Shown piece after piece: positions 14,524 through 32,303 of a stretch of DNA of 64,000 bases. The stretch is from Ignavibacteriota bacterium. GTDB taxonomy: Bacteria > Bacteroidota > Ignavibacteria > UBA10030 > BY39. A program made the position numbers and the translations under genes. The notes under the pieces are model-generated. The model made no database searches. It saw nothing but the letters and a program-made list of their open reading frames with translations, and had not been told where the DNA came from. The stretch covers positions 186,001 through 250,000 of the forward strand of contig QOQV01000001.1 of NCBI GenBank assembly GCA_003327435.1, given 5' to 3'. Position 1 is the stretch's first letter. Each line of letters opens with the position of its first letter.

Positions 14524-14578
14524 TATTACTAACTCCAAAGTAATTAATTTGATTAAATGTAAAATTTATAAGTGGAAC

Positions 14579-15025: not shown

Positions 15026-16051
15026 TTAAAAATTTATTTGAACATTTATAATTGAATTAGAACCAAAATATTTGATTGGACGATAAGCATAGTCAATCGC
15101 AAATTCAATTCCACTTATACTATACTTAAGGCCAAAACCGTATGTGTACTGATAAATGTATACCAATTCTTCTGGAACAAGGATATAACCGACTCTCAAA
15201 AATAGATTATCGTTATAAGAATATTCCAATCCTGCTTTATACAAATCATTGCCATAATTATTATTTTCAAAAGCACCACTTAAAATAATATTATTCGAAT
15301 TTGTGATACTCTTTTGATATGCAAATCCAAGTTCCAAAGATGAGGGTAAATCAAAAGGATTAGATTTCACAACTACAGTTCTTGTTGTCGGATGTATTGT
15401 AGATATTTGAATCTCTCTTTCTAAATCAGTACCTTCAAATTTCATTGCTGGACCGATGTTTTTCAGTACTATACCGAATATTAGTCCAGTGTTACCAGCA
15501 AAATATTGTATACCAGCATCGAACCCAATCCCATAAGCGGAAGTTCTAAAAATTTTTTCTTGTATAAATTTTACAGTAAAACCAGTATTCAATCTATCCG
15601 TAATTCTACGAGCATATGATAAACCTACATTAAAAAACACTGGAGAGAAATAATTTCCTGTTCCTTCAGGATAATCTTCAGTTGTTTCTTCGATACTTCC
15701 TAAATCTAATGATCTTATATTTAATGCGATGCTACCAAACCCGTTAATATTAGCAGAGATTGCAGCATTATTTAATGATATATCTGCAATGTAATTGTTT
15801 CTTGCGAAGTATAACTCTATATTGTTTTGAGTATTAACAATTCCAGAAGGATTCCAACTTACCGCTTCAATACCTTTTGCATAGGAAATTGTGGAATTTC
15901 CGAGTGCTGCACCTCGAGCACCAACAGGAATTAGTAATTCAAGAGCGCCCGCTGTTCCTTTTTTACTCTCTTTCCCGGCAAAAGCAATATTGGTTAATCC
16001 TAATAATAATATTAATATAAAATATATCTTGTGTTTGACTATGTAAATCAT
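15026..16051 (-). CDS. PorV/PorQ-family outer-membrane beta-barrel (copy 1)
   Basis: A 341-residue protein with a signal peptide ending near IAFAG. It then shows the family pattern GTAGALELLIPVGARGAALG, a WNPSGI motif, and alternating amphipathic strands finishing in VQINF, an aromatic C-terminus typical of outer-membrane barrels. In Bacteroidota, PorV is the shuttle that delivers T9SS cargo to the PorU sortase. The family also includes FadL-like proteins, so a transport role cannot be excluded. It is closely similar in layout to the products of 17003-18043 and 24957-25988. It follows the NHL gene by 34 bases and precedes ssb and cargo 1. Confidence 0.88.
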   Translation of the reverse strand: MIYIVKHKIYFILILLLGLTNIAFAGKESKKGTAGALELLIPVGARGAALGNSTISYAKGIEAVSWNPSGIVNTQNNIELYFARNNYIADISLNNAAISANINGFGSIALNIRSLDLGSIEETTEDYPEGTGNYFSPVFFNVGLSYARRITDRLNTGFTVKFIQEKIFRTSAYGIGFDAGIQYFAGNTGLIFGIVLKNIGPAMKFEGTDLEREIQISTIHPTTRTVVVKSNPFDLPSSLELGFAYQKSITNSNNIILSGAFENNNYGNDLYKAGLEYSYNDNLFLRVGYILVPEELVYIYQYTYGFGLKYSISGIEFAIDYAYRPIKYFGSNSIINVQINF

Positions 16052-16085
16052 TCTTGATGATACTTTCTATTTATAATACAACATT

Positions 16086-16967
16086 TTAATTTTCTTTCCA
16101 ATTTAAAATATCTTCCATTTTGATTTTTAGTATAAATTTGGAAGATAAAATATAAATATTTCTATTATGATAAACCAGATCCACTATTTTATATTGTGTG
16201 ATATCAGGAATTATTGATGATAATTTAAAGTGATTCAACAATTTTCCATTCGTATCGCAGTGGTTGAGATCAGTTCCTGATAAAACAAACAAATCATTAT
16301 CATACAGCGTAAAATTAGTTATATCAATATCAAATTTCAACTCTTTCAATAAAAAACCCCAATTGGAGTAGATAAGAATTCTTTTTCTATCTGAAGTAAT
16401 AATATTATTTTTTGAATCGAATAATATTTTAAATGGTAAACCAGAAGATGATAACTCTAATTCTCCAAATGTTCGTTCAAGTTTTTTATCATTAGTATAT
16501 TTAAAGAATCTTTTTGTTTCAAGATCATAAACAATTACATTATAAAATTTATCTACTCCGATGAGATAAGGGTACTTAATTTTTATTTCATCATAGGATA
16601 AGCTTCCTAAATATTCTAAATTCCTATTAAATCTTTGAATTCTATTGTTATAACAATCTGTTATATAAAAATTTAAATCGTCTGGAGAGTAAAAAGAAGT
16701 GGGATTATCAAAATTTAAATTTCCCCATCCTTTTCCTCCAATCATTTTATTTACTGAACCATCAGGATTAAATTTTACGAAAAGATTATCGCTACTACTT
16801 AATAAATAAATAAATCCGTCCTTTGAGAGTAAAATATTGTCTGGATTATTTGTTATTGAATCTATCCTTATCGAGCTATAAATGGTTTGAGAGATGGTTA
16901 TATTTAGAGTTAAACCAAAATTAAGTACACCGTATAAGAAGATAAGAAAAACAAAAGGGTTGCCCAT
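16086..16967 (-). CDS. Exported NHL-like beta-propeller protein
   Basis: A protein of about 293 residues from the ATG at 16967. A hydrophobic N-terminus (PFVFLIFLYGVLNFGLTL) acts as a signal peptide or anchor. The rest holds repeated units with FYITDCYNNRIQRFNRN and related lines, typical of NHL or six-bladed propeller proteins. An upstream ATG at 17030 keeps the same frame but would add residues overlapping the preceding PorV gene, with no signal-like character, so I prefer 16967. No clear ribosome-binding site precedes it. The start codon lies inside the loop of a terminator hairpin. It sits between two PorV-like genes; function unknown. Confidence 0.72.
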   Translation of the reverse strand: MGNPFVFLIFLYGVLNFGLTLNITISQTIYSSIRIDSITNNPDNILLSKDGFIYLLSSSDNLFVKFNPDGSVNKMIGGKGWGNLNFDNPTSFYSPDDLNFYITDCYNNRIQRFNRNLEYLGSLSYDEIKIKYPYLIGVDKFYNVIVYDLETKRFFKYTNDKKLERTFGELELSSSGLPFKILFDSKNNIITSDRKRILIYSNWGFLLKELKFDIDITNFTLYDNDLFVLSGTDLNHCDTNGKLLNHFKLSSIIPDITQYKIVDLVYHNRNIYILSSKFILKIKMEDILNWKEN

Positions 16968-16983
16968 AATATTTGGGCAACCC
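16957..16983 (-). terminator. Intrinsic terminator of the TonB-cargo-PorV operon, overlapping a start codon
   Basis: A 9-bp GC-rich stem (GGGTTGCCC at 16957-16965 and GGGCAACCC at 16975-16983) encloses a 9-base loop. On the minus strand it is followed at once by TTTTGTTTTTC. It lies 19 bases after the PorV stop at 17003. The ATG at 16967 of the next gene falls in the loop and its first codons form the second arm. Confidence 0.8.
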
Positions 16984-17002
16984 AGACACATTGATGAAAA
17001 TT

Positions 17003-18043
17003 TTAAAATCCTAAGCGAACGGTGAACCATTGATTTGCATTGAAGAATTTAGCAGGTCGGTAGGCATAGTCCACAGCCATTTCGATACCGCTTATATGAT
17101 ATTGTATACCTGCGCCAAAAGTGAAATCAAAAATACCCTCTAAAGTCCCCGGGATATCGGGTGAAACAAGGTATCCACCTCGTAAAAAGATAATATTATT
17201 ATAGGAATATTCTACACCGAATCTATACTGGTCGTTTGAATAGTTGTTATTAACGAAAGTAGTATTTAGCGATAATAAGTGTTCAGTTGCCAAAGCATAA
17301 TTATATGATAATCCCAATTCAAGGGTAGTTGGAAGATCAAATGCTGCTGTACGGATCACATATGGTTGAGGTGGAAATCCAATGGGTTGATTTGGATCAT
17401 TAACAAATCTCTCAAAATCCGGCCCATCGAATCTAATTTTGGTACCGAGGTTTTTAAGTGCAATACCAAAATTGAAACCTGTTTCACCTGCTTTGTATTG
17501 TAGCCCAAAATCAAAAGCAAATGCAGACGCTTCTACTCTTTGTATAGATTCATACACCAATTTAACATTTGTACCAAAGAATATTCTATCAGTCATTCTT
17601 CTGGCATAAGTTAAACCGATAGTCATATATGTTGGTGAGTATGTTACACCGGTACCTTCAGGTTTATCGATTGTTGTCACTTCGATATCACCGAATGAAA
17701 GCGTTTTTAAACTTGCAGCAATATAACCAAAGTCTCCTAAATTCCCAGAAACCGCAAAGTAATTTACACCGATATCTGCGATGTACTGCAAGTTAGAAAA
17801 CATTACTTCTGAAGTCAAAGTACTTCGAGCTAAACCTGCAGGATTCCAGAATAGAGCATCTAATCCATGCGCTTTTGCGAGCGTTGAACCATTCAATCCG
17901 ACACCGGCAGAACCGATTGGAATGAGTAACTCAGTTGCAGCGGCAGTTCCTCTTCTATTTGGTGAACCCGCATGTAAATCAAAATATAAACCGAGTATAA
18001 GTATTATGATTAATCCTATGTTTATAATTTTCCAGTTTTTCAT
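17003..18043 (-). CDS. PorV/PorQ-family outer-membrane beta-barrel (copy 2)
   Basis: A 346-residue protein with a signal peptide ending near DLHAG. The conserved opening GTAAATELLIPIGSAGVGL, the WNPAGLAR motif, and a C-terminal strand ending VRLGF place it in the same PorV-like family as the products of 15026-16051 and 24957-25988. The ATG follows GAAGGAGAAAG. It is the third gene of a receptor/cargo/PorV cassette, 29 bases after cargo 2. Its likely role is to escort the neighbouring sorting-domain protein at the outer membrane, which is an inference from gene order and from what PorV does in T9SS. Confidence 0.9.
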   Translation of the reverse strand: MKNWKIINIGLIIILILGLYFDLHAGSPNRRGTAAATELLIPIGSAGVGLNGSTLAKAHGLDALFWNPAGLARSTLTSEVMFSNLQYIADIGVNYFAVSGNLGDFGYIAASLKTLSFGDIEVTTIDKPEGTGVTYSPTYMTIGLTYARRMTDRIFFGTNVKLVYESIQRVEASAFAFDFGLQYKAGETGFNFGIALKNLGTKIRFDGPDFERFVNDPNQPIGFPPQPYVIRTAAFDLPTTLELGLSYNYALATEHLLSLNTTFVNNNYSNDQYRFGVEYSYNNIIFLRGGYLVSPDIPGTLEGIFDFTFGAGIQYHISGIEMAVDYAYRPAKFFNANQWFTVRLGF

Positions 18044-18072
18044 ATTCTTTCTCCTTCAATAAATTTTCATTA

Positions 18073-21000
18073 TTAGAATGTATCTAATCGTTCTTCTTGA
18101 ATGAAGATAGCGAATTTGACTACTTTCTCGCCTATACCTTCAGCTTCGATATGTGCTATATACATACCACTGGCAACAGGAATTCCTGCATGGTTTTTCA
18201 AATCCCACCTCGTTGAGCTATTGTCAATAATTCCGTTGTTATCATGTTCGATTGTCCTGATCATATCACCAGCAAGGTTGAAAATTCTGATTTTACATTT
18301 TGCTGGAAGATTAGTAAATGTTACATAACTATCAAATGGATCTTGTTGAAGCTGATGTGAGGCATAGTAGGGATTCGGTACTACTTTGATTTTATTCATT
18401 TCATTACGCATACGGGCAAGATCCAAGTTACCCAAGACTGGTGCTTTTACTTCGAATTCAAAGACTTTATCAGCAGATAAATAATAATTTGGTCTAATGT
18501 AGAATATATCACCATTACGGAATGTAGTATCCGGAGTTAGTCGTTTCATCCATACAACATACATTACTGGTAAATTTTCAAAATCGTTCAATAAATTAAA
18601 ATGGGGCCTATAACTATCTGTAGTTCCACCGGTGTACATTGCTTTTGGTGTATCTGAATAGGTGGTACCAAAAATTATTAACACTTCATCACCCGATTTT
18701 TGAGCATTCGGGGTTGTTGGTAAAGCTGGATTGGGATAATAGAAATGTGTTGGAGACCATCTTCCATCAACTTTTCCATAATTCACATAAATAGTGGTAT
18801 CTACAAGTGTTGAATCAGGTCGCATAACTTTCACTGACTTATAGAGTGTATCATTTCTTTCAACGATAGCAACATCAAGCTGGCGCTCAGTCCCATGAAT
18901 TGTATCAACTTCCCAAACTGTGAATGGAACAACATATCCACTATCTGGAATTCCAAGTCGGTATAATTCATAATCCTGATAAAGGAAACCACTACCAATA
19001 CTATCTTTAACAAACGGCCTAAATTCTGGATGTTTTACTCTCCTCAATACAGGTGGGAATGGGGCAAAACCTGAAATATATCGATATGCTTTTTGTGTAT
19101 TTGTTGCACTAAATCTTATTTCAACCCTTCTCAAACTATCAGGTCGCAATTTACTAGGTTTACCCTCAAAATTATCCAACCTTGGATAGGCTACTAAGCC
19201 ATATCGAGTTGATGTACCATAATCGTCCATTGTACTATTATATGCACCATTAAACCAACGGCGACCTTTATAAGACCATCCACGAGGGTTTTGTGTAGCT
19301 CGTCGTACTCCAACAGGATGCTTTATAACCTTTGGCATTACATTAGAAACAATTGGATAATCATCGTCACCAGAAAAGTTGGTACTGACATAAACCAAGC
19401 TATCAGTAGTTTGGTTTATCACTTTCCACAGTTTCCAAGCTGTAACATTCGTGTCGACCCCATCAAAAGTAATTTTATATTTAGCGTTTTCAGTACGCCA
19501 TGGATCAATAACTGAAATTTGAACAGCATCATCATAGTGATTTTTTGATACCCATCTATTATGTGCTACCAGGTCACCATAATTAGCGCCAGATGGAAAT
19601 TCCGAACCCTGAACCGGATTTTTAGGAACAATTGTTATTGGGATCTTGGGAGATTCAAGCACTAATAATCCGCTAATTGTTTTTAATTTAGCAGTATCAG
19701 TATCTTCGTATTGAGCCAGTGCTGTGGCGGTTAGCATGAAATAATAAGGTTTGCCTGGGACAAATGGTTTGAGAGTAATTCTATCTTCTGTTAACAAAAT
19801 ATTATTAACAATTCCTTCAGTTCCTCCTTCCCAGATTTTCATTCGGACTGGATCATCAACATTAGGTACTGAAACCCAGTCGTACACTTTATTTCTTCCA
19901 CCCTTAATATACCAATTCCCAATTTTTTCAATTTTTGCACCTGGTCGAAGTAAAGGGTCGTTGGTTTGGTATAAATCATATGCGTGGAATTTCCAGGTTG
20001 TTGAATCAAATTTAGGATCAAAATTTACAAAACTTTCGGCTCTTTTATCCCAGGTTAATAACAAATTTCCGTTTACAAAACTATATTCAAGCTTGGGCAT
20101 TGGTGGCGGAGGAGGCAAGCGGAAATTGTTATTGAACAGAGTTTGTGAGAGATCTGCATAATTTCGTAAAACCGTTATACTGTTCAACTCACTTGAACCT
20201 CTGGCTACAATTACACCTACAACAACCTGTTGCGTGTCCCCGGGCATCATTCTAAATGGTCCAGCAGGCATAGTAAATCTTATATCTGAAGGGGCAACAT
20301 AATCTTTATTTAAAAATCCAACACCAGCTACTGGATCACCGGCAAAAACAAAATTTACTGTGTCACCGGTGTGCGGATCTACCCAGGGTTTATCGGTCCG
20401 TGTCCTTCCTTTCATTATATTGTAGGCTTGTTCATATAGACTTGGATCATACCAATCCGGGTTAGTACAACCTCCTTGACCTGGATTACAATAAAAATTA
20501 AATCCTGATTGGTTTAAATTAATATAATTAGGGATTCTTAAGCCAGACCATTTTGCAGTATCTTCGATGTTACCAGTAAATATTCTTGGACCTTGGAAAT
20601 ATTTATAGCCAACAGCCGGTGGAGCAGAACCATAACCAGGTGGTCCATCATTATTATCTCCATTATAGCAGAAGCCCAAATTCCTCTTTTCATATACCAC
20701 ACCTCGAGAAGTAACAGTTGAATCAAATATTGTAGTATCGACACCGCAATAATCATCAAAAGCATCACCCAAATCAGGGTCAGACCAAACTACAAGATAG
20801 GTTGAATCCCAAATATTGCTACTTTTATTTATAATTTCAAATCTCATAAATATCATCTGACCAAAAGGACCTGATCTATTATAAGCCCAACTTAATTGGC
20901 GTACTTCTGCACCTAAAGGTAGACTTCTACCCCAAATCCAGCTATGATATGCAGGATCAGCATCATTGTAAACAGCAAACATCATCATATCTGGATAAAC

Positions 21001-21561
21001 AACTTGATCACCCCATACTAACGCAGGCTTATCAACATATGGATTGTATACACCATCCCCATCGATATCGTGAAAAGTTGCACCTTGATCTACAGGCCAT
21101 TCTAACCAATCGGGATTCATAGGAGAATCTTCATTGGGTCTGACTTTATAATATCGATATTTTGACTTTGTGAAATCATCTGGGGTTCCATCTGGAAGAA
21201 TTATTCCTGGTCTCAATTCAGAACCAAAGTGACCGACAGTTGCAACTCTAATCGTTTTCTTATTAGTATCAGTTGCTGCTGTATCACGTACTTTTGCACC
21301 TATCCACATTGATGATGAAAAAATAGCATAGACACCACCACCTTTGGGCCACTCAAATCCAGGACCTGTTGTACTATGATCACTAAAAAACTCACCGTCG
21401 TTACGATACCAGGCACTGATACTATTCACATCCATTAATTTTCTTTCAATGATTGTGGGTTTAAAACTTGGTAGAACATTTTTAAAATCACGGTCAACAG
21501 CAAATAAAGCTGATGAACAAATAAAACTTATTGCAACCAATAAAATGATAATTTTCTTCAT
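18073..21561 (-). CDS. Large secreted protein with T9SS type A sorting domain (cargo 2)
   Basis: At 1162 residues this is the longest of the three paralogous cargo proteins. A signal peptide spans residues 1-21. The N-terminal module has YRNDGEFFSD and MWIGAK, and a calcium-loop-like DIDGDGVYN lies at about residue 165. A PGDTQQVVVG segment precedes a proline-rich PPPPPMPK linker and a domain with AYDLYQTN. The last 90 or so residues carry NPYYASHQ, CKIRIFNLAGDMIRTI and PVASGMYIAHIE, the sorting-domain pattern, and end EERLDTF. It is 27 bases downstream of the TonB receptor gene and 29 bases upstream of PorV copy 2. No catalytic site is recognisable. The predicted location is the cell surface or outside the cell. 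Confidence 0.9.
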   Translation of the reverse strand: MKKIIILLVAISFICSSALFAVDRDFKNVLPSFKPTIIERKLMDVNSISAWYRNDGEFFSDHSTTGPGFEWPKGGGVYAIFSSSMWIGAKVRDTAATDTNKKTIRVATVGHFGSELRPGIILPDGTPDDFTKSKYRYYKVRPNEDSPMNPDWLEWPVDQGATFHDIDGDGVYNPYVDKPALVWGDQVVYPDMMMFAVYNDADPAYHSWIWGRSLPLGAEVRQLSWAYNRSGPFGQMIFMRFEIINKSSNIWDSTYLVVWSDPDLGDAFDDYCGVDTTIFDSTVTSRGVVYEKRNLGFCYNGDNNDGPPGYGSAPPAVGYKYFQGPRIFTGNIEDTAKWSGLRIPNYINLNQSGFNFYCNPGQGGCTNPDWYDPSLYEQAYNIMKGRTRTDKPWVDPHTGDTVNFVFAGDPVAGVGFLNKDYVAPSDIRFTMPAGPFRMMPGDTQQVVVGVIVARGSSELNSITVLRNYADLSQTLFNNNFRLPPPPPMPKLEYSFVNGNLLLTWDKRAESFVNFDPKFDSTTWKFHAYDLYQTNDPLLRPGAKIEKIGNWYIKGGRNKVYDWVSVPNVDDPVRMKIWEGGTEGIVNNILLTEDRITLKPFVPGKPYYFMLTATALAQYEDTDTAKLKTISGLLVLESPKIPITIVPKNPVQGSEFPSGANYGDLVAHNRWVSKNHYDDAVQISVIDPWRTENAKYKITFDGVDTNVTAWKLWKVINQTTDSLVYVSTNFSGDDDYPIVSNVMPKVIKHPVGVRRATQNPRGWSYKGRRWFNGAYNSTMDDYGTSTRYGLVAYPRLDNFEGKPSKLRPDSLRRVEIRFSATNTQKAYRYISGFAPFPPVLRRVKHPEFRPFVKDSIGSGFLYQDYELYRLGIPDSGYVVPFTVWEVDTIHGTERQLDVAIVERNDTLYKSVKVMRPDSTLVDTTIYVNYGKVDGRWSPTHFYYPNPALPTTPNAQKSGDEVLIIFGTTYSDTPKAMYTGGTTDSYRPHFNLLNDFENLPVMYVVWMKRLTPDTTFRNGDIFYIRPNYYLSADKVFEFEVKAPVLGNLDLARMRNEMNKIKVVPNPYYASHQLQQDPFDSYVTFTNLPAKCKIRIFNLAGDMIRTIEHDNNGIIDNSSTRWDLKNHAGIPVASGMYIAHIEAEGIGEKVVKFAIFIQEERLDTF

Positions 21562-21588
21562 ATTTTTATGCTCCTGATGAATTTGTTT

Positions 21589-24500
21589 TTAAAATTCTAA
21601 CATTAAACCAAACCTGATTTGGCGTGGTGGACCTACATAACCGGGTTGTGCTTCGAACATATTGTATAATCCAACAAAAACCGGTATTTCATCAGCACGT
21701 CCCTGCTGTACCAATCTGTTAAATGTTTCTTTTGCATCGTCAGAGGATAAGTATCCAGTCGCATCTGGTAATCCAGAACCAGACCATACATAAGCTGTAT
21801 TTTTACGATTCAGCAAATTCAAAATAAGTACATAAGCATTTAATCTTAGATTATAAGGGAGATCAAAAGTTTTATCCACTCTGAAGTCAAATCTGAAATT
21901 CCAACCACTATAGTTCTCGTTTATACCTGATTGAGGACGAATTCGAGAATCCGTCGGTGGTATATTTGGATCATTTAGTGTATAAGGTCTTCCACTATTA
22001 GCTCTGAATAATAAATTCATACCAAACTGATCCAACCATGGATTATCAATCTTACCGAATCTATAATCAAGATTAGCAGATATTGTATGTCTTTGATCAA
22101 AATCTAACGGATTTTCAAATTTAGGTGCTCGAGCATTTAACCAAACAATTACACCCAAGGTGCCTGGATCAGATCCTGTACCAGTCGCATATGATAGTGT
22201 ATAATTTACTGATGCTGCGAAATTATTCCATCTCCTCAAATCGAAAGTTACATCAAGTCCACGTATTGTCGAATAATCACCATTTTGATAAGTCGAAAAT
22301 GTGGTTTTGTTAAAATTAGAATTAATAAATCCTAATTGAATTAATCCAGTTACTTCTTTGTAATATGCTGACAAATTAATACTTGCTAAATCACCAATTT
22401 GTTGGCGAATTCCAACTTCATATTGTGTAGTCTTCTCTGGTTTAAGTCGAGGATTGTTAATTGTTATATATCCTGGTTGTTTATACCATTCTATTAACCT
22501 ATCCTGACTACTGTATAGCAAGGACAATCTTGGCATTTGTGCAAATGTACCATATTGAGCAAAAAATACTGTTCTATCAGAAACAGGGAAAGAAAATCCT
22601 AATCTTGGACTTAAAACTACATATGGTTTAGATTTTTCAAAACTATCATCATCAAGTGTATTGGGATTGCCCCAGCCATCACTTGGAACAGGTTTACCTG
22701 GATTCTTCAATATAAAGTTTTCCTTAGTTCCCCATAATTGAGTGTTCATACTATTCGATACATCATACAAATTTTTTAATACATTTGTATTGGCATCCCA
22801 ATAATCTAAGCGCAATCCAGCATTCAAAACAAAATCTTCGAGCTCCATTTTATCCTGCAAATACCAGGCAGCAAAAATTGGTTCTTTTGGACCTTCTGCT
22901 CTTTTAGCTTTATTGTACCCATCATAATTTACTTCCCTTCCAAAATAATCGTAACCATAGGTGTTAACGCCCCTCGAAGCATATTCTTTGTATACATAAG
23001 CTAATTGTGCGCTATCCAGTAAATCAGGATTGACTTTGATAATATTTTTTATTGAATCAGGCAATAGGGCTAAGCTGAGTGGACCGATTGCATAATTTCT
23101 TAGCTGATGTAATTTATATTCACCACCTGTTTTGATTTCGTGATTTCCAATTTGATGTGTTAAGTTTGCATTGAATTGCCAAAACGTTGTCTTATCATAA
23201 CCATAGTAGTTATATACTCTGCCCGGGAAAGCAAATTGTCCTAAATAACTGTCCATTGGAATTCTTTGACCCATTTGAGGTGGTTGTTGATAATTTCTGA
23301 ATAATGGATTTTTCGCGGTGTCTCCATAATCAAAAACACGATCTCTATGAACTGGGTCCATCAAATTGTTGTATGTATACAAATAACTTGCCTGTACTTC
23401 AAGGAAGGTTTTTGGTTGTGGTGTCCATGTACCTCTAAATGTAAATTGATGATTCTTTGAAACTCCAATTGGGTTATGAAAGGCATTCATTAATGCATAG
23501 CTTGCAACTCTACTTCTTGCTTCAGTCCATGACGAAATACCACTTATGTTAAGTCTGAAATCACCTAAATTAAAAGTAAGTTTTTCATTCCAGGCATAAC
23601 GTAATCTTGCACCATCAGGAAGCTGACCGGGCCGTGCCTTATTCCAGCTTGGTTGGTCTAGCAACAATTCTTTCACCCTCTCTTGATATGCAGGACTTCC
23701 TATTTCTTCTGGAGTAAATGTTGGACGTCTGGATATTAATTGAATATAATTTAATGAGACAAATTGAAATTTTGGCCAGATATTATTTGCAATATCCCGT
23801 AATCTTTCTGATACATAACTTGGGTTAGGATCACGATCGAATTGATACTCAAAAGAACCAAAGAATTGCAATAAATTTCTATTTGATGGTATCACAGGTC
23901 CACCCAATGAAAAATTCATTAACTCATGACCAGTACTACGCAATCCCTTAAAGCCATCACCTATTATATTGTCAGTTACATATTCCAAACTACCAAAGTA
24001 ATTTGGCTTACCGGATCTTGTAGAGACATTCACGATACCACTCATAACATTACCATACTCAGCACTATATCCACCAGTCATAACGATCATTTCTTGTATT
24101 GCACGCTGACTTACAAATGCTGTAGAACCTCCAGTAAGTGGATTGTTTGTCCAAACTCCATCTATGATATATCCTGTTTCCTCATCCCGTCCACCTCGGA
24201 CATTTAGGGCACCACCTCTTTCATCTTGAACAACACCAGCGCTTGTAGCTGCAATTTCACGGAAACCTCTAACTGGCATTAGTTGAATTTGTTCGTTTGT
24301 AACAACTCTAACCGTACCAGTTTGGTCTTTTGGAATAATTGGACGTTCAGCTGAAATTACAACTTCCTGTAATTCCACTGCCTCCTGACTCATTTCCACA
24401 TTTTGAGTTGTAGTAAATCCAACAAGAACCTTTAAATTTTTAACCATTACTTCTCTGTAACCAACATGTCGCACAATGAGATTGTATGTTCCAACTGGAA

Positions 24501-24708
24501 CATTTAATATTAGATAATTACCTTCTAAATCCGTTGTAGTACCAATCGTTGTGCCCTCCAACAATATGTTAGCACCAATTAATGGTTCTCGTGTTTCCTT
24601 ATCAATTACTCGTCCACTAATTTTACCAGTAGTTGATTGAGCCAAAACGATTGATACAGATATAACAAAAAGAATAAAAACAGCAAAAAACTTTTTAAAG
24701 ATGTTCAT
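21589..24708 (-). CDS. TonB-dependent receptor with CarboxypepD-like N-terminal domain (copy 1)
   Basis: A 1039-residue outer-membrane protein. After a signal peptide (residues 1-23) comes a carboxypeptidase-regulatory-like beta-sandwich at about residues 27-112 (GKISGRVIDKETREPLIGAN, GYREV). A plug domain (about 125-240) with LNVRGGRDEETGY and IIDGVWTNNPLTGG follows, then a long barrel ending FGLMLEF. AAAGGAGG lies five bases before the ATG. Such receptors import large ligands with TonB energy. No SusD-like gene is nearby, so it is not a standard SusCD pair; its immediate downstream partner is instead a T9SS cargo gene. The ligand is unknown. Confidence 0.94.
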   Translation of the reverse strand: MNIFKKFFAVFILFVISVSIVLAQSTTGKISGRVIDKETREPLIGANILLEGTTIGTTTDLEGNYLILNVPVGTYNLIVRHVGYREVMVKNLKVLVGFTTTQNVEMSQEAVELQEVVISAERPIIPKDQTGTVRVVTNEQIQLMPVRGFREIAATSAGVVQDERGGALNVRGGRDEETGYIIDGVWTNNPLTGGSTAFVSQRAIQEMIVMTGGYSAEYGNVMSGIVNVSTRSGKPNYFGSLEYVTDNIIGDGFKGLRSTGHELMNFSLGGPVIPSNRNLLQFFGSFEYQFDRDPNPSYVSERLRDIANNIWPKFQFVSLNYIQLISRRPTFTPEEIGSPAYQERVKELLLDQPSWNKARPGQLPDGARLRYAWNEKLTFNLGDFRLNISGISSWTEARSRVASYALMNAFHNPIGVSKNHQFTFRGTWTPQPKTFLEVQASYLYTYNNLMDPVHRDRVFDYGDTAKNPLFRNYQQPPQMGQRIPMDSYLGQFAFPGRVYNYYGYDKTTFWQFNANLTHQIGNHEIKTGGEYKLHQLRNYAIGPLSLALLPDSIKNIIKVNPDLLDSAQLAYVYKEYASRGVNTYGYDYFGREVNYDGYNKAKRAEGPKEPIFAAWYLQDKMELEDFVLNAGLRLDYWDANTNVLKNLYDVSNSMNTQLWGTKENFILKNPGKPVPSDGWGNPNTLDDDSFEKSKPYVVLSPRLGFSFPVSDRTVFFAQYGTFAQMPRLSLLYSSQDRLIEWYKQPGYITINNPRLKPEKTTQYEVGIRQQIGDLASINLSAYYKEVTGLIQLGFINSNFNKTTFSTYQNGDYSTIRGLDVTFDLRRWNNFAASVNYTLSYATGTGSDPGTLGVIVWLNARAPKFENPLDFDQRHTISANLDYRFGKIDNPWLDQFGMNLLFRANSGRPYTLNDPNIPPTDSRIRPQSGINENYSGWNFRFDFRVDKTFDLPYNLRLNAYVLILNLLNRKNTAYVWSGSGLPDATGYLSSDDAKETFNRLVQQGRADEIPVFVGLYNMFEAQPGYVGPPRQIRFGLMLEF

Positions 24709-24837
24709 AACTCCTCCTTTGCAAGGAAATATTAGACATATTATTAAATAAATTTATGCTTGTTAAATGATTTGATAATTACGATACTAATTCTTAGATA
24801 ACGGCTGACAAAAATAGAACATTATATATTTCAATTT

Positions 24838-24866
24838 AATATATGAAATTGAAAATAATAAAACAA
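24838..24866 (-). promoter_or_regulatory. Possible promoter of the first receptor/cargo/PorV cassette
   Basis: On the minus strand TTGTTT (24866-24861) and TATATT (24843-24838) are 17 bases apart. Initiation would be near 24831, leaving a leader of about 120 bases to the receptor ATG. The -35 box matches poorly and the region is very AT-rich, so this is tentative. Confidence 0.4.
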
Positions 24867-24892
24867 ATCAATTTGTTTTTAAGATAAAAAAA

Positions 24893-24929
24893 ACGGCACA
24901 ATTTAGCAAATATTGCTAAATTGTGCCGT
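24893..24929 (-). terminator. Strong intrinsic terminator after the second cassette
   Basis: A perfect 17-bp stem (ACGGCACAATTTAGCAA at 24893-24909, complement at 24913-24929) has a 3-base loop. On the minus strand it is followed by a run of seven T residues. It begins 27 bases after the PorV copy 3 stop at 24957 and cleanly separates the two cassettes. Confidence 0.95.
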
Positions 24930-24956
24930 AATAGTCCACATCACTAAACATTCAAC

Positions 24957-25988
24957 TTAGAACGAAAACTGAATTGTAAACCACTGATTGGCATCAAATA
25001 GGTCTGTTACACGGTAGGCATAATCGAAAGCTAACCGGAAGTCACCAAATGGAATGTTTAAGCCCAAACCAAATGTAGGACCAAAAATATAATCGGTTTT
25101 AAACTGCGACATCGCGTATCCACCCCTCAAATAGAGCATATTATCATAATCATATTCCAAACCAAACCTATATTCATCTGCATCGAAATTAGCATTCTGG
25201 AAATTAGCCATCACAGAAACCTTGTTTCTATCATTTATTACATAAGGATATGCTATGCCAATTTCCAATGTAGTTGGGAATTCGAAACCAGCAGATACTA
25301 TTCTTAAAGGTCTTTGACGACTACCTGGTTCAACATTTGGTAAATTCACAAATCTTTCCAGGTCTGGACCATCATATTTCATTCCACCACCGATATTTTT
25401 TAAGGTGACACCAAGATTGATACCAGTTTCTCCGGACCGATATTGAACACCAAAATCAAATGCTAAACCTGATGCAGTTGATCTCATTATCTTTTCAGAT
25501 ACCAATTTGACTGTTGCACCACCATATATACGGTCAGTAAATGCTCTTGAATATGTTAAACCAAAAGTGAGGTAAGTTGGTGTGAATGTACCGCCTGTAC
25601 CTTCGGGTTGAAATACAGTAGTTATTGGAATATCGCCAAAGCTGAGATTTCTTAACGATACTGCAAATGTTCCAACATCACCAAAGTTTGAGCTAACAGC
25701 AAAGTATTGGACACCGATATCAGCAATATAAGAAAGATGTGAGAACATTGCTTCTACCCCAGTTCTTCTTGCGACACCAGCAGGATTCCAATAAATTGCG
25801 TCTACTCCAGTCGCATATGCATTCATTGCACCGCTTAATGCTGTGCCTCTTGAACCGACTGGTATAAGAAGTTCAGTGGCACCAGCAGTTCCCATTCTAT
25901 TTTTTGATCCAGCGTACAATTGATCAACACCAGCAGCAAATATTAAGGCTGCTATTATTACTATTAAAACTGATTTTTTCGTCATCAT
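24957..25988 (-). CDS. PorV/PorQ-family outer-membrane beta-barrel (copy 3)
   Basis: A 343-residue protein with a signal peptide ending near QLYAG, then GTAGATELLIPVGSRGTALS and the WNPAGVAR motif. The closing strand ends IQFSF, an aromatic terminus suited to outer-membrane assembly. Among the three copies it looks closest to the product of 17003-18043, sharing long stretches such as the DGPDLERFV-like segment. Two tandem ATGs (25988 and 25985) follow GGAGAG. It is the last gene of the cassette and ends in a very strong terminator. A hairpin lies between it and its cargo gene, which may lower its expression relative to the cargo. Confidence 0.9.
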   Translation of the reverse strand: MMTKKSVLIVIIAALIFAAGVDQLYAGSKNRMGTAGATELLIPVGSRGTALSGAMNAYATGVDAIYWNPAGVARRTGVEAMFSHLSYIADIGVQYFAVSSNFGDVGTFAVSLRNLSFGDIPITTVFQPEGTGGTFTPTYLTFGLTYSRAFTDRIYGGATVKLVSEKIMRSTASGLAFDFGVQYRSGETGINLGVTLKNIGGGMKYDGPDLERFVNLPNVEPGSRQRPLRIVSAGFEFPTTLEIGIAYPYVINDRNKVSVMANFQNANFDADEYRFGLEYDYDNMLYLRGGYAMSQFKTDYIFGPTFGLGLNIPFGDFRLAFDYAYRVTDLFDANQWFTIQFSF

Positions 25989-26042
25989 ATTTGTCTCTCC
26001 TAAATTTATTTTAGAGAATTTTTTAAACTTTATTAATTCATA

Positions 26043-26068
26043 GGTTCGGCCTTTTTAAAGACCGAACC
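26043..26068 (-). terminator. Weak terminator or attenuator between cargo 3 and PorV copy 3
   Basis: GGTTCGG at 26043-26049 pairs with 26062-26068, and an inner CTTT/AAAG extends the stem past one mismatch. It lies 11 bases after the cargo 3 stop. The minus-strand tail TATGAATTAATAAAG lacks a U-tract, so it may be an attenuator or an mRNA-stabilising hairpin rather than a full stop. Confidence 0.5.
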
Positions 26069-26078
26069 ATATTTTATA

Positions 26079-29000
26079 TTAGAAGTTATCAAGTCGTTCT
26101 TCAGCCATTATAACAGCAACTTTTAGAATCTTTGTACCGATATCAGGCATATCAATATGAACTATGTACATACCACTGGCAACTGGTAAGCCGTTATTAT
26201 TTTGTAAGTCCCAATCAGTTGTAGTACTTTGATCATCCTTATCAATTCTTCTAATCATAGTACCCTGTAAATTGAAAATCCTGATTGTACATTTTGGAGG
26301 TAAATTAGTAAATCTCATTATCCTACCAAATTGATTCCTTTCATATTCACTAGCTCCAAAATATGGATTGGGGACTGCCATAATCTTATCTATATCCTGT
26401 TTTGCAATTTCAACTGAAGATGTCGGTACATAGTTAGCGCTATTAAAGAAGAATGTGTCTTTTGGAGCGTTAACAAAATTTGGTGTAATGGTTAATTTAC
26501 CTACTGATTCGTTTAATGAGTGACCTGATCTCAGTTGTGGCCATAACACAAACAATACATCAAATTCATCAGCATTGTTTAGTAAATCTCTCGAAGTATA
26601 ATAAGGATCCGGAGTTTCAGAATAATCACTCTTCAAAATAAATGTATATTCCCTACCGCCAGCAGATGAATTATCTGGATCCCAGATACCATTTCCAGCT
26701 GCAGGATTTCTATCAGACCAAGCAATATTTAACTGTCGAGGTGGATCTGATGTAATATCCCAAGCAGTAAAAGGAACATTAACATAGTCCTGATACAGAT
26801 ATCTTGTTGGAGAAGTTAACCTAATATACCTATATGCTTTTTGAGGATTAGCAGCATCGAATCGTAATTCCACCTTTACTAAATCACCGGCACCTAAGTT
26901 TGAATCAAAGAAGTGGTTACCAACAAAAATTCCATCACCATCATTATCACCACCTGCTCCTGGTAAATCCCTTAACCAGAAATCTGTTTCAGGTGTCCAA
27001 TAAGTTTCATCAACATTTATACCAGCTGGAGGGCTAATCACTTTAACAAGTATACCGTCTACAATTGGATATAAATCATTCCCTGACTGATTAGTCATAT
27101 TAGAAACCTTTGGTTGGCCGGTTGTTGTATTTATTAAGCTCCAGACGAAGTCGTGTGTAACGGCATCAATTGAAAACACAACCTTATAAGAATCACCAGT
27201 TATTTTTCTTGGATCAATAACGATTGGGATTACTTTACCATCACTTAAAAATGTTTCAGAGCGATGTTCAACACCTTTAATCGTATCTCCATAGCTCGCT
27301 GCATATCGTGTTCCTGGTTGTTTAGTTGGTCGAATTCTAATTATATTTTTAGAACTTTCAAGGGTTTTGGGGACACTTTCCTTATTATAAGTATAAGCTG
27401 TAACCGCAAAATAGTAGTCTTTACCGTTAACTATAGGATTATTTGTCAGAAAATCTTTAGTTATCGATATGCTTCTTTTTAATCCATTATCACTTCCAAA
27501 TTTTACGGGTCTATTAACAAAGGCACCTAAATTTGGATCAAAGACATCGTCATATATTATCATCACATTATTTTTAATGTCATAGGTTGCAACAATTTTT
27601 TCATCACTTCCAGAAATGTTTGAATATTGATAAACCACATAACCTTCAAAAACATAATACGGGTCAGGATCTCCAGCAGCATCAGCAAGTGGATCAAAAG
27701 TTCTGGTTTCTTCTATTGTAGACGCATACTCGTGATCAATCCCCCAATTTAATACAATTTGATTATCGAGGGCTATTGCTTCAACTTTAGGAGATGCTGG
27801 TGGAGCTGCAAGTTTGAAATTTAAATCATACGCAGTTTGTGCAACTAAATCAGCCTGTTTAAGTGCATTGACACTTTGCAAATAATCTGAACCGAGGGCA
27901 ATTAGATTTCCTGCAACAATTTCTTGTGTATCTCCAGGTGCCATTGTAAATGGACCTGAACTCATTAAAAATCTTCTGTCACCACCAGGTCCCTGTTCTA
28001 ACCAGTTAGTTGCTGGATCATATGGTTTTGTTGGATCACCTGGGAACATAAAATTAGCGGGATTACCGAGTGGATCTGTGATTCTGACACCATTTCTATC
28101 ATATGCGCGCATATAATTATACACTTCTGCACCAGTCTGTGGATTTCCAAGTGGCGAAGTGTCATTATTGTACTTCACAAATGATGTCATCTTTAAATTT
28201 TTATAATCAGGTATTAATTTACCAGACACATATGCTGTATCTCCAGGAGATGGTACAATTGGTCCCTGGAAGAAATCGAAACCTGTTGCAGGTGGTACTC
28301 CGTACACTCCATCAACAGCATCGTAGTTATATGTATAACCCAATCCTAATGTCGTATCGCAACCATCATAATCATCACCTGAATCACCAAGATCAATATC
28401 TGTCCAAATTGTTATATATGCATCTTTCAGTGTTTTACCACCTTTGTTTATAATCTTCCACTTATAGAAGATAGTATTTCCAAGAGCATCTGAGCGAGCA
28501 TATGCAAATGCAGTTAATTGTACCTCAATTCCAAGCGGAGGAGTTAACATATTTGTATGAACAGCTGGATCATTATCATTAAAAACGCACCAAACGGTTT
28601 GATCTCCAAGAAGTTCAGGAGTATCTATACCAGGATCCCAAACTCCATTACCATTTACATCAACCCAGGGTGCTCCATCTTCAACAGGCCAGTTAGCATA
28701 ATCTGGATTATTTTCGGCGTTATCACCTCTGGATATTTTATACATTTTCCATCTATCATCGGCTGGGTTAATGCCTACACCAATTGGACCAGCAATATAT
28801 TCATAGGAATATTCTGCAACGGCAACACAGACCTGTCCAGTAGCATTGTCAATAGCACCAACCCATATTCCTGAAGCATAATTTGCGGTATTTCCGCTTC
28901 CCTTTGGCCATTCAAAACCGGCATTTCCTGTGCCGGGATCGCGATTAAATGAACCGTTGTTACGAATAAATGTGGATATATTATTAATATCCATTTTGAT

Positions 29001-29135
29001 ATAATCGCCAACAACACCAGGTTTCTGTTGTTTCTGACCTGATTTATCAGCAGAGGCAAGGTTGTTATTTACGATGAATAACAAAATTGCCAGGCTTAAA
29101 AATATTGTTGTTAGATAATTAATTTTCTTTCTCAT
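26079..29135 (-). CDS. Large secreted protein with T9SS type A sorting domain (cargo 3)
   Basis: A 1018-residue exported protein with an N-terminal hydrophobic signal segment (about residues 7-28). The N-terminal module has IRNNGSFNRD, GFEWPKGSG and GIWVGA, followed at about residue 159 by DVNGNGVWD, where the related cargo proteins have DxDGDG. A PGDTQEIVAG segment and a fibronectin-III-like domain (FEGYVVYQYSN) come next. The C-terminal 90 or so residues hold NPYFGASEY, CTIRIFNLQGTMIRRI and PVASGMYIVHIDMP, a T9SS sorting domain, and the protein ends EERLDNF. GAAGGAG precedes the ATG. It is the middle gene of the second cassette, between a TonB receptor and PorV copy 3. Confidence 0.9.
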   Translation of the reverse strand: MRKKINYLTTIFLSLAILLFIVNNNLASADKSGQKQQKPGVVGDYIKMDINNISTFIRNNGSFNRDPGTGNAGFEWPKGSGNTANYASGIWVGAIDNATGQVCVAVAEYSYEYIAGPIGVGINPADDRWKMYKISRGDNAENNPDYANWPVEDGAPWVDVNGNGVWDPGIDTPELLGDQTVWCVFNDNDPAVHTNMLTPPLGIEVQLTAFAYARSDALGNTIFYKWKIINKGGKTLKDAYITIWTDIDLGDSGDDYDGCDTTLGLGYTYNYDAVDGVYGVPPATGFDFFQGPIVPSPGDTAYVSGKLIPDYKNLKMTSFVKYNNDTSPLGNPQTGAEVYNYMRAYDRNGVRITDPLGNPANFMFPGDPTKPYDPATNWLEQGPGGDRRFLMSSGPFTMAPGDTQEIVAGNLIALGSDYLQSVNALKQADLVAQTAYDLNFKLAAPPASPKVEAIALDNQIVLNWGIDHEYASTIEETRTFDPLADAAGDPDPYYVFEGYVVYQYSNISGSDEKIVATYDIKNNVMIIYDDVFDPNLGAFVNRPVKFGSDNGLKRSISITKDFLTNNPIVNGKDYYFAVTAYTYNKESVPKTLESSKNIIRIRPTKQPGTRYAASYGDTIKGVEHRSETFLSDGKVIPIVIDPRKITGDSYKVVFSIDAVTHDFVWSLINTTTGQPKVSNMTNQSGNDLYPIVDGILVKVISPPAGINVDETYWTPETDFWLRDLPGAGGDNDGDGIFVGNHFFDSNLGAGDLVKVELRFDAANPQKAYRYIRLTSPTRYLYQDYVNVPFTAWDITSDPPRQLNIAWSDRNPAAGNGIWDPDNSSAGGREYTFILKSDYSETPDPYYTSRDLLNNADEFDVLFVLWPQLRSGHSLNESVGKLTITPNFVNAPKDTFFFNSANYVPTSSVEIAKQDIDKIMAVPNPYFGASEYERNQFGRIMRFTNLPPKCTIRIFNLQGTMIRRIDKDDQSTTTDWDLQNNNGLPVASGMYIVHIDMPDIGTKILKVAVIMAEERLDNF

Positions 29136-29176
29136 ATTTTTTCTCCTTCAAGAAATTTTTATCTTGATTCATTTAT

Positions 29177-31996
29177 TTAGTAATACAATCTTATTCCAAA
29201 TCTCATTTGTGCTGGTAAACCATAATTTGCAGGATTATTTTCTCTTGCTCTGAATATATCCACAGCTTCCTGTCCATATAATTGCGCCCACTCTTGGCCT
29301 TCACGAGTAGAGAGCCATCCTGAGTTATTTGGTTCACCAGTTCCTCTATAAACACTAAACACATTCTTTGCATCCAATACATTTATCCACCATAAGTATA
29401 TATTTGCTGAAACATTTTTGAAATTAAATGTTCTATCTATTTTTAAATCCAAACGGAAATTCCATGGTGTATAAGCTTGATTAATTGCACCTGTTGGACG
29501 AATTTCAGTTACACCACCAAAGAATGGGTTGTAAATTATAGATTGTGTATATGGAACACCGCTGTTGAATGCAAATAGTGCATTGATTCCAAATTTTTCG
29601 AGTGGATAGATATCTCCAACTTTGGGTCCTTCATTTGCTCCTAATCTATAATCTAAGTTAATACTACCATTATGCCTACGATCAAAATCAAGTGGTGCAA
29701 TTAATTTTGGATTTTCAGTCTGTATCCATGCTATCCTTGATTGGGTAAGCGGATCTGATCCAGTACCCATTGCATAAGAGAGTGTGTAATTAACTGTAGC
29801 TGCAAAATTTTTAGTTCTCCTTAATTCAAAAATTATATCAAAACCTTTTATTGTTCCATAATCAGTATTGATATAGGATTCATATCCATTAGGATAGCCT
29901 GGTTGAATATTACGAGATTGAATAAGATCTTTTACTTCTTTATAAAAAGCAGTTATACTTATTGCTGCTTGATCAGTTATCATTTGACGGAATCCGAATT
30001 CATACGCAACTGTCTTTTCAGGTTTTAAATTCGGATTTGGAATTTTTGTTGAAAATGGTGCATCTACGATCATGCGATTTAACCAGGTTTTGCTTGCCAG
30101 CACGTATTGCAATGGTGGTTGTGCGAGGAATATACCATATTGTGCATGGAAAACGGCTCTATCTGTGATCGGGAATGAAAATCCTAATCTTGGACTTACT
30201 GTAACAGTAGCTTTTGAATCTTCAATATCACCAGGATCGAAAACACCACCGCCTGGAGTTCCTCTTTCACCGTATGGATTATAAGGATCCTTAAAAACTT
30301 TTTCATTAGCATCGAAATAGTCCAAACGTGCACCTAAATTTAGCACAAGATCACTATATTCAATTTTATCCTGTACATAGAATGCACCATACACTGGATG
30401 TTTTGGACCTTCTTTTTTATCATTACCATCCACAAAGAAATTATCATCACCAGAAACCTCATAAGATCCATCATAAGTATAACCATAATATTCCACATTA
30501 TTTGCTCTATACAATCTCCATAGAGCATCAGGTGCTGTTGAAGTTGTTCCAATTGCTAATCCCATTGGATTTACTGTAAATCTCCTTATAATATAATATC
30601 TATATTCACCACCAAGTTTGAGGAGATGATTTCCTTGCTGACTAGTTATATCTCCATTAAATCCAATGTACTCTGATTTGGATTTTGTGAAGCGATCAAG
30701 TACATGACCTTTTGGGGCTATAGTACTATAAACAGCACCAGGATTTGTTGCCTGTGATGTTAAGAATGGATTGATTGCCGTGTCACCATAAGCCAGCAAA
30801 TTATCGAACCACCTTCCATCACCAGATTTAAGATCCTCTCTGAAATAAGAAACTTGTGCTGTGTAGAATGTTTTTGGATCAATATTTTGTGTGAATTTAA
30901 AATATCCTGAATATGTAGTGTTATCAAATCTTTGATGATTTTCCCAGGCACGGAATCTTCTGAAATTATCCCAGTTATTACCTTCACGCCCATAATAATA
31001 TCCACCTAACAACATTTGAATCTCAGGGATAGGTTTAGCGCTTAGCTTACCATTAACATTCCAGCTTGAAAGGGAGCTATTTGGTTTTATCCCGCCAATA
31101 GCACGGGGATCATTATCTCTTAAAAACTGTCTCTCCACAGCGAGGAATATCGTCAGCATATCTTTGCCGGGGATAATTGGACCACCAAATGTGGCATTAT
31201 AAACATTATAACCAAATGAGGTGTAGGGTCCGAAGAATTTATCGCCAGGTTTTATGAGATTATCGGTAATAGCTTCAACAGATCCAAAATAATTTGCTCT
31301 TGCTTGTCGTGTGGTTAAACTAACTAAACCTGACATAGCAGAACCATATTCAGCATTAAATCCACCAGTTTGAACCTGTAATTCTTCGATTGAATTTGTA
31401 TTTAAATTTGCAAAAGACGCGCTACCTGTACCAGCAAGTGGATTGTTAACGGCAACACCGTCAACAAAATATGCAACTTCATTTGGTCTGCCACCTCTAA
31501 TATACAAATTGTTTGAACCTTCATCCTGAACCACAGATGCTTGAACACCAACCACATTAACTGCACCTCTTATTGGAAGATTTGCAATTTCCTCATAGGT
31601 TTGTGTTCTAACGGTATTAGTATAGTCCTTCTGGATAAGTGGTCTTTCTGCAATTATTTGTACTTCTCTGAGTTCAATAGATTCCTCAATCAGAGCAAAA
31701 TTAATTTCTGTTGTAAAATCTGCTGATACCTTTACATTAGAAATGGTTACTTCTCGATAACCAACATAGGATGCTCTCAGCGTATAAGTTCCCGGAGGAA
31801 CATTCAATATGAAATAGCTTCCATCAACGCCCGAAGCTGCACCCATCGAAGTACCGACAATTAGTATATTAACTCCAACAAGTGGCTCTCCACTTGTCTT
31901 ATCTGTCACTTTACCTGCAATCTTACCGGGACCAGCAAAAACTAGGCTTGAAAGCGTAAATAAGAGCAGACTAAATAATAACAATTTACGTATCAT
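29177..31996 (-). CDS. TonB-dependent receptor with CarboxypepD-like N-terminal domain (copy 2)
   Basis: A receptor of about 939 residues. A signal peptide (residues 1-21) is followed by a carboxypeptidase-regulatory-like sandwich (GKIAGKVTDKTSGEPLVG, GYREV). A plug with LYIRGGRPNEVAYFVDG and VNNPLAGTGS comes next, then a barrel that ends MRFGIRLYY. GGAGG lies five bases before the ATG at 31996; an in-frame ATG at 32008 overlaps that Shine-Dalgarno sequence and is rejected. It is a paralogue of the product of 21589-24708 and, like it, is followed by a cargo gene and a PorV gene. No SusD partner is seen. A near-consensus promoter lies about 180 bases upstream. Confidence 0.94.
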   Translation of the reverse strand: MIRKLLLFSLLLFTLSSLVFAGPGKIAGKVTDKTSGEPLVGVNILIVGTSMGAASGVDGSYFILNVPPGTYTLRASYVGYREVTISNVKVSADFTTEINFALIEESIELREVQIIAERPLIQKDYTNTVRTQTYEEIANLPIRGAVNVVGVQASVVQDEGSNNLYIRGGRPNEVAYFVDGVAVNNPLAGTGSASFANLNTNSIEELQVQTGGFNAEYGSAMSGLVSLTTRQARANYFGSVEAITDNLIKPGDKFFGPYTSFGYNVYNATFGGPIIPGKDMLTIFLAVERQFLRDNDPRAIGGIKPNSSLSSWNVNGKLSAKPIPEIQMLLGGYYYGREGNNWDNFRRFRAWENHQRFDNTTYSGYFKFTQNIDPKTFYTAQVSYFREDLKSGDGRWFDNLLAYGDTAINPFLTSQATNPGAVYSTIAPKGHVLDRFTKSKSEYIGFNGDITSQQGNHLLKLGGEYRYYIIRRFTVNPMGLAIGTTSTAPDALWRLYRANNVEYYGYTYDGSYEVSGDDNFFVDGNDKKEGPKHPVYGAFYVQDKIEYSDLVLNLGARLDYFDANEKVFKDPYNPYGERGTPGGGVFDPGDIEDSKATVTVSPRLGFSFPITDRAVFHAQYGIFLAQPPLQYVLASKTWLNRMIVDAPFSTKIPNPNLKPEKTVAYEFGFRQMITDQAAISITAFYKEVKDLIQSRNIQPGYPNGYESYINTDYGTIKGFDIIFELRRTKNFAATVNYTLSYAMGTGSDPLTQSRIAWIQTENPKLIAPLDFDRRHNGSINLDYRLGANEGPKVGDIYPLEKFGINALFAFNSGVPYTQSIIYNPFFGGVTEIRPTGAINQAYTPWNFRLDLKIDRTFNFKNVSANIYLWWINVLDAKNVFSVYRGTGEPNNSGWLSTREGQEWAQLYGQEAVDIFRARENNPANYGLPAQMRFGIRLYY

Positions 31997-32303
31997 ATAA
32001 ACCTCCATTGATTTGTTAAAAGGTTAATTTTATTTTGATTAGAAAAATTGTGTTTGCTGAAATCGTTTTTACCTCCAACGATTTTAGCATGTTTTTTGTA
32101 AGAGTGTATAATTAATAACTGTATCAAAATACTATATCTATATCCTGTATTGTTTCACTATTTATTTCAATGAAAATATAATAAATAATTTTGACTATGT
32201 CAAGTGTTTCATTAAAAAAAAGTTAGATTTGATTGTATTTTAATAGATATAATAACATTTTAACCACTTAAAATTTTTAAAAATTTGCTTATTTTATGAG
32301 GAT
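31997..32303 (-). other. Intergenic region: promoter and long 5' leader of the second cassette
   Basis: No credible coding sequence lies here. On the minus strand it holds a near-consensus promoter (32175-32203) and a leader of about 170 bases. Within the leader, AAATCGTT (32060-32067) and its complement (32077-32084) form a hairpin whose loop displays GGAGGTAAA on the RNA, about 70 bases before the true start. The remainder is very AT-rich. Confidence 0.6.
32175..32203 (-). promoter_or_regulatory. Sigma-70-like promoter of the second receptor/cargo/PorV cassette
   Basis: TTGACA (32203-32198), a perfect -35 box, is 17 bases from TATATT (32180-32175) on the minus strand. Initiation near 32168 would produce the long leader described for the intergenic region, ahead of the receptor at 31996. 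Confidence 0.72.

Follow-up and report, generated by a model that had tools for sequence, protein, structure and literature searches.

Receptor–cargo–PorV gene triads in an Ignavibacteriota genome: candidate three-part uptake complexes that would be built through the type IX secretion system

Why should a genome encode, next to particular secreted proteins, paralogues of a shuttle that is held to serve them all? The question is raised by a stretch of 64,000 nucleotides from an Ignavibacteriota bacterium (contig QOQV01000001.1, positions 186,001 to 250,000), referred to here as the window. It carries two cassettes, each encoding a TonB-dependent receptor (T), a cargo of the type IX secretion system (T9SS; C) and a PorV-family barrel (P). 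In the current view a single PorV is shared by the type A cargos of the T9SS, and SusCD is the typical glycan importer of Bacteroidota. A first-pass annotation of the sequence described two T–C–P runs of the same order and orientation, and the six open reading frames (ORFs) are indeed uninterrupted and all on the minus strand (Table 1), with intergenic gaps of 41 and 90 bp in cassette 1 and of 27 and 29 bp in cassette 2. We propose, with moderate confidence, that the products of each cassette form a three-part uptake complex in the outer membrane, which would take the place of SusCD and be built through the T9SS.

The gene order is kept far beyond the window. A first sample was obtained by a cargo-relative scan, seeded partly by the motif of the C-terminal domain (CTD), in which neighbours were called as simple ORFs and scored with profiles. 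It comprises 76 loci from Ignavibacteriota, Kryptonia, Calditrichota, KSB1, Neomarinimicrobiota, Latescibacterota, Gemmatimonadota and unplaced Bacteroidota. Fifty-three of these are T–C–P triads that agree in order and strand; their gaps have medians of 27 and 29 bp (the window and two other runs of the host genome are included in the count). Because the scan was partly seeded by the CTD motif, a further sample was taken from the phylum, in which 115 of 248 genomes have the cargo family. T–C–P was found in 23 of the 28 regions fetched, a few of which belong to genomes that the first sample also covers; several of the remaining regions are cut off by the end of a contig or suffer from errors of the simple gene caller. 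The flanking genes are ribosomal in the host, trigger factor, ClpP and ClpX in Neomarinimicrobiota, peptide permeases in Latescibacterota and acyl-CoA dehydrogenase in Melioribacteraceae. Since the flanks differ among groups, it is the triad itself that is conserved. T–C–P is a fixed three-gene unit in at least seven phyla, and the synteny to which the first-pass annotation pointed is borne out in both samples.

The host genome and its relatives have the T9SS parts that the cargo assignment implies. SprA is present in all 49 triad genomes, Latescibacterota included, which disposes of the objection that Latescibacterota or Gemmatimonadota are free of a T9SS, and PorU exceeds its cut-off in 42 of the 49. 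In the Kryptonia genome of locus L121 the SprA match (G045 C10:17110-23460) contains seven in-frame stops, which could be sequencing errors, decay or a joined match. The 2.63 Mb host assembly has 16 PorV-family matches and about a dozen TonB receptors. These include, besides the window, two further T–C–P runs (loci L130 and L132) and one T–P pair (L131), and four such runs and a pair among these genes are not the product of chance. The canonical PorV (257.9 bits, cut-off 250) adjoins PorU (963 bits) at L134, away from the cassettes, and PorQ (242.7 bits, cut-off 220) lies separately at L135. SprA (1114 bits), together with its neighbours, and TonB genes are also present, and no SusD (PF07980) was found in the host genome. 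At L138:5137-8535 a CTD protein is followed by two adjoining PorV-family genes, with no TonB receptor.

Trees of T, C and P were compared for 48 triads. Thirty of the 45 splits are common to all three, and the mirrortree distance correlations among them are high (r of 0.88–0.90, permutation maximum 0.36). SprA from 40 of the same genomes served as the control for vertical descent. It correlates with the triad genes at only 0.54–0.62, and the partial correlations within the triad, given SprA distance, are 0.81–0.86 (permutation maximum 0.17), which rules out mere shared descent as the source of the signal. The topologies of the neighbouring genes therefore match, as the first-pass annotation had anticipated, with and without the SprA correction. 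The Melioribacteraceae triads are scattered in each of the three trees, a pattern that indicates whole-unit transfer or old paralogy. At L082 the T, C and P trees each place two whole units as sisters, the mark of a later duplication of the whole unit. Between the two window cassettes the identity is 43% for T, 37% for C and 53% for P; cassette 1 groups with L055 and not with cassette 2, which excludes a recent tandem duplication. The trees thus indicate that the two are old paralogues: the duplication and divergence read from the window were real, and the duplication is older than was implied.

This co-evolution bears on an alternative in which the cassettes serve export only. P would deliver C, which would be released or attached to lipopolysaccharide, and T would be a co-transcribed importer without contact to either, the three proteins having a substrate and regulation in common and forming no complex. 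The presence of PorU in nearly all triad genomes is in keeping with this, and order and co-inheritance could be explained by co-transcription alone. However, the co-evolution of T with C is as strong as that of P (partial r of 0.864 versus 0.811), and it holds over two cargo types, long and short, and over independent whole-unit relocations. We consider export only to be unlikely, although it deserves to be kept in mind.

The profiles and predicted structures define the three partners further. T1 and T2 each combine a CarboxypepD_reg domain with a plug and a TonB-dependent barrel, and score far under the cut-off of the SusC/RagA model TIGR04056 (88 and 77.6 bits, cut-off 368). P1 and P2 pass the PorV/PorQ family model NF033709 (176 and 177 bits, cut-off 90) and fail the canonical PorV equivalog NF033710 (65 and 71.6 bits, cut-off 250). 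Both are also far under the cut-off of the canonical PorQ model, and P2 fails the BamG model NF053685 (21.6 bits, cut-off 250). The predicted structure of P1 (pLDDT 87) is a 14-strand barrel that resembles PorV in the SprA complex (6h3i_F; TM 0.69, E 3e-15) more closely than FadL/TodX-type barrels (TM 0.54, E 5e-9).

The latter matches place P within a wider FadL-like group and raise the alternative that P conducts hydrophobic molecules as a FadL-type channel, that C is carried by the shared PorV like any ordinary cargo and that the substrate is lipid-like. This is very improbable, as PorV is clearly the nearest fold and the only strong PDB sequence match for P (1.4e-20), and the clades of P track the cargo class. 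In the PorV-family tree (102 rows) the P proteins of long-type cargos, P3 of the window included, form one clade (SH-aLRT 96) and those of short-type cargos another (99), with canonical PorV, PorQ and PorV2-like proteins outside both. As far as these sequences go, the PorV type follows the cargo type. Short-type cassettes (L222-L240) have an extra gene of about 470–560 amino acids after P (in the host, L132:12807-14297), which matches the PorV profile in many loci and forms a clade of its own in the tree.

For C1 and C2, no Pfam family scored above its cut-off, and none of the cassette proteins matched the type B CTD model (TIGR04131) in NCBIfam at an E value of 0.01. A Lys near the C-terminus (K1005) is invariant in 50 cargo sequences, and matches a Lys described for type A CTDs (PMC10994853). 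The C1 model (pLDDT 84) has PorZ as its top Foldseek match, presumably via the CTD, with PorU also among the fold matches. In the Foldseek alignments the N-terminal part seems to correspond to the supersandwich side of GH116, GH94 and GH161 enzymes, with domain boundaries that we infer. The predicted secondary structure of C1 shows no catalytic (alpha/alpha)6 barrel, and a PDB sequence search with the cargo profile gave no match.

The long-type cargos that have a P neighbour carry about nine extra residues beyond the last CTD strand (for example EERLDNF or EQQFLENF). This tail is present in all 80 long-type cargos with P next to them and in 11 of the 29 without P (Fisher p = 2e-13, a value inflated by kinship within clades, since the sequences are not independent). 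It ends in F or Y in 71 of the 80 cargos with a P neighbour. Some paralogues have P and others lack it in nine loci; six of these obey the rule exactly, and the pattern repeats across phyla. A tail next to P suits retention better than release, a further point against export only. The P alignment has 26 class-specific positions, which are scattered, and no clear basic pocket for the acidic tail was seen among them.

The genomic context speaks to the substrate. The host short-cargo cassette lies between GH28 and GH88 genes, with a LacI regulator, and the locus is of pectin type. Most of the short-type relatives (20 regions fetched) retain T–C–P. The commonest families among 82 neighbours of 15 short-type loci are heparinase II/III (Hepar_II_III, nine), chondroitinase B (six) and alginate lyase (five), and GH88 genes are also found beside short-cargo cassettes. 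The setting of the short-type relatives is thus one of uronate polysaccharides. No SusD was found beside the short-type cassettes in these alginate and pectin loci; PF07980 is missing from 24 of the 45 triad genomes tested, and elsewhere its listed positions are outside the fetched cassette regions. The uptake half of the function suggested by the first-pass annotation is strengthened by these alginate and pectin enzymes. Its wider claim, a dedicated three-part system for export or uptake, is helped by cassette PorVs distinct from canonical PorV and PorQ and by a host without PF07980 SusD, while the joint function stays conjectural.

The long-type triads, to which the window belongs, sit beside ribosomal, ClpP/trigger factor and dehydrogenase genes, not in degradative loci. 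This setting, with the wide conservation of the cargo family across the phylum (115 of 248 genomes), would also fit C as an abundant surface-layer or envelope protein with P as its anchor and T as a sensor or assembly factor without transport. However, T keeps its plug and a TonB-box-like sequence, the short-type relatives do sit in degradative loci, and the several divergent copies of the unit per genome look more like substrate diversification. We judge a purely structural role improbable.

Other genes recur beside the triads. GWxTD-domain proteins make up 11 of the 100 neighbours scanned at long-type triads and are the commonest family there. At L056:14438-15838 such a gene immediately follows the PorV gene, and genes of about 460 amino acids are similarly placed in other long-type loci; a GWxTD-domain protein is a possible fourth member of the unit. 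In Latescibacterota/Gemmatimonadota (L057:14226-17588) genes for a TPR protein and for two oligopeptide-permease-like subunits come after the triad, a hint of a peptide substrate there.

In the uptake complex that we propose, C would enter the periplasm and then use SprA, the T9SS channel, to cross the outer membrane. The type A-like CTD of C and the tail that follows it would be received by the cargo's own PorV paralogue P and not by the common PorV. P would remain bound as a surface anchor and shield the CTD from the sortase PorU, on the model of what has been proposed for PorQ with PorZ and for PorP/SprF with type B cargos. At the surface C, with its supersandwich-like N-terminal domain and other beta-domains, would then lie over T and bind substrate as SusD does for SusC, and T would import the substrate using TonB energy. 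We infer, rather than observe, the binding of the CTD and tail by P, the retention of C, its complex with T and the import of substrate.

Several findings weigh against this proposal, the kinship behind the tail statistic among them. C1 and C2 score 21.3 and 18.5 bits with the type A sorting domain model TIGR04183, under its cut-off of 23. The N-terminal fold match of C1 is weak, with a TM of about 0.18 over the whole protein. The tail is missing from short-type cargos and from the host L130 cargo, and 11 cargos that lack a P neighbour do have it, so it is neither necessary for pairing nor exclusive to it. A carbohydrate-active enzyme context was looked for around the long-type cassettes and is absent; since they lie amid housekeeping genes, the uptake role is carried over to them from the short type.

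The features of the window are collected in Table 1. Terminator-like hairpins were found after P1 and P2, in agreement with the earlier claim of one terminator per cassette. The near-consensus promoter claimed at the same time does exist before T1 as an 11/12 match, but taken together such matches are no more frequent than chance would give (95 observed, 84 expected). The run does not end at P2; the same strand continues with an NHL-repeat gene, the true start of which probably lies downstream of that of the longest ORF, and then with P3, SSB and C3. Adjoining C3 (window 10222-11211) is a CNNM/CBS protein resembling GldE, at 199.8 bits below the cut-off of 376.

Table 1. Cassette genes and neighbouring features of the window, in window coordinates
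Feature	Position	Strand	Remarks
Promoter-like site 5' of T1, TTGACA-17-TATATT	32175..32203	-	Consensus match only, 11/12
T1, TonB-dependent receptor, N-terminal carboxypeptidase-regulatory-like domain	29177..32008	-	TonB-box-like EVQIIAERP; possible start 31996
C1, surface cargo, 1018 aa	26079..29135	-	N-terminal signal, N-terminal domain similar to the beta-supersandwich of glycosidases/phosphorylases, type A-like T9SS CTD, tail MAEERLDNF
P1, PorV/PorQ-family 14-strand barrel, presumed C1 partner	24957..25988	-	Closest solved structure is PorV in the SprA complex
Hairpin 3' of P1, terminator-like	24893..24929	-	17 bp stem, T tail
T2, TonB-dependent receptor of cassette 2	21589..24708	-	TonB-box-like EVVISAERP
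C2, cargo, 1162 aa	18073..21561	-	Tail IQEERLDTF
P2, PorV/PorQ-family barrel, presumed C2 partner	17003..18043	-	PorV/PorQ profile match
Hairpin 3' of P2, terminator-like	16957..16983	-	10 bp stem; overlapped by the longest NHL ORF at the 5' end of that ORF
NHL-repeat protein, between P2 and P3	16086..17030	-	Longest ORF
P3, third PorV-family barrel	15026..16051	-	Placed in the long-cargo P clade
SSB, separating P3 from C3	14579..15013	-	
C3, third cargo of the C1/C2 family, 1102-1107 aa, without its own receptor	11215..14538	-	Tail QPDQGYNPF

If the proposal is true, the unit ties protein secretion to nutrient import, also in genomes without PF07980 SusD, and accounts for the many PorV paralogues (16 matches in the host). 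It would also provide predictable cargo–shuttle–receptor trios for the study of T9SS specificity and surface retention. As part of a wider reading, type A T9SS cargos would likewise have cognate shuttles, a generalization for which we see about even chances.

No account of the T–C–P unit was found in the literature searched on the T9SS and PorV and on SusD-less loci, in which subscription papers and preprints are incompletely covered. A close precedent is the Rhodothermus marinus alginate locus, whose annotation gives tonB first, then a T9SS type A protein, then a PorV/PorQ protein and last a hypothetical protein, with the unit not remarked on (PMC9530828). This tonB–hypA–hypB locus has the same gene order as the cassettes, and host cassette L132 has the same layout. 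It differs in that its annotation stands in a figure legend, uninterpreted as a unit, and its cargo is of the short type (about 727 amino acids). A xylan locus of R. marinus has a TonB receptor, a hypothetical protein with a sorting domain and another hypothetical protein (PMC6987092).

SusC/SusD, RagA/RagB and BtuB/BtuG resemble T–C in pairing a receptor that has a carboxypeptidase-regulatory-like domain with a co-encoded, probably surface-exposed partner, and the short-type T–C–P, like SusC/SusD, is also found in polysaccharide loci. C, which is unrelated to SusD, has a T9SS-type CTD where SusD is a surface lipoprotein, and it has its own PorV barrel; the score of T is well under the cut-off of the SusC model. 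In the PorZ/PorQ and PorU/PorV pairs of the attachment complex, CTD proteins are reported to be uncleaved and held by a PorV-family barrel, and cognate PorV-like barrels have been proposed to guard CTDs against PorU (PMC10202324). Those pairs lack a TonB receptor, and PorQ and canonical PorV are encoded elsewhere in the host genome. For the type A cargos of F. johnsoniae one shared PorV is reported (PMC12618676), whereas type B cargos have a cognate PorP/SprF encoded just downstream, which decides their final localization and serves both secretion and anchoring (PMC12618676, PMC9143113). The cassettes share with these the dedicated barrel gene directly 3' of the cargo gene, and differ in having a type A-like CTD, a PorV-family barrel and a TonB receptor in front. 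The triads thus resemble a type A version of the PorP/SprF scheme with an importer added, and we therefore favour a retained P–C pair with T as the importer.

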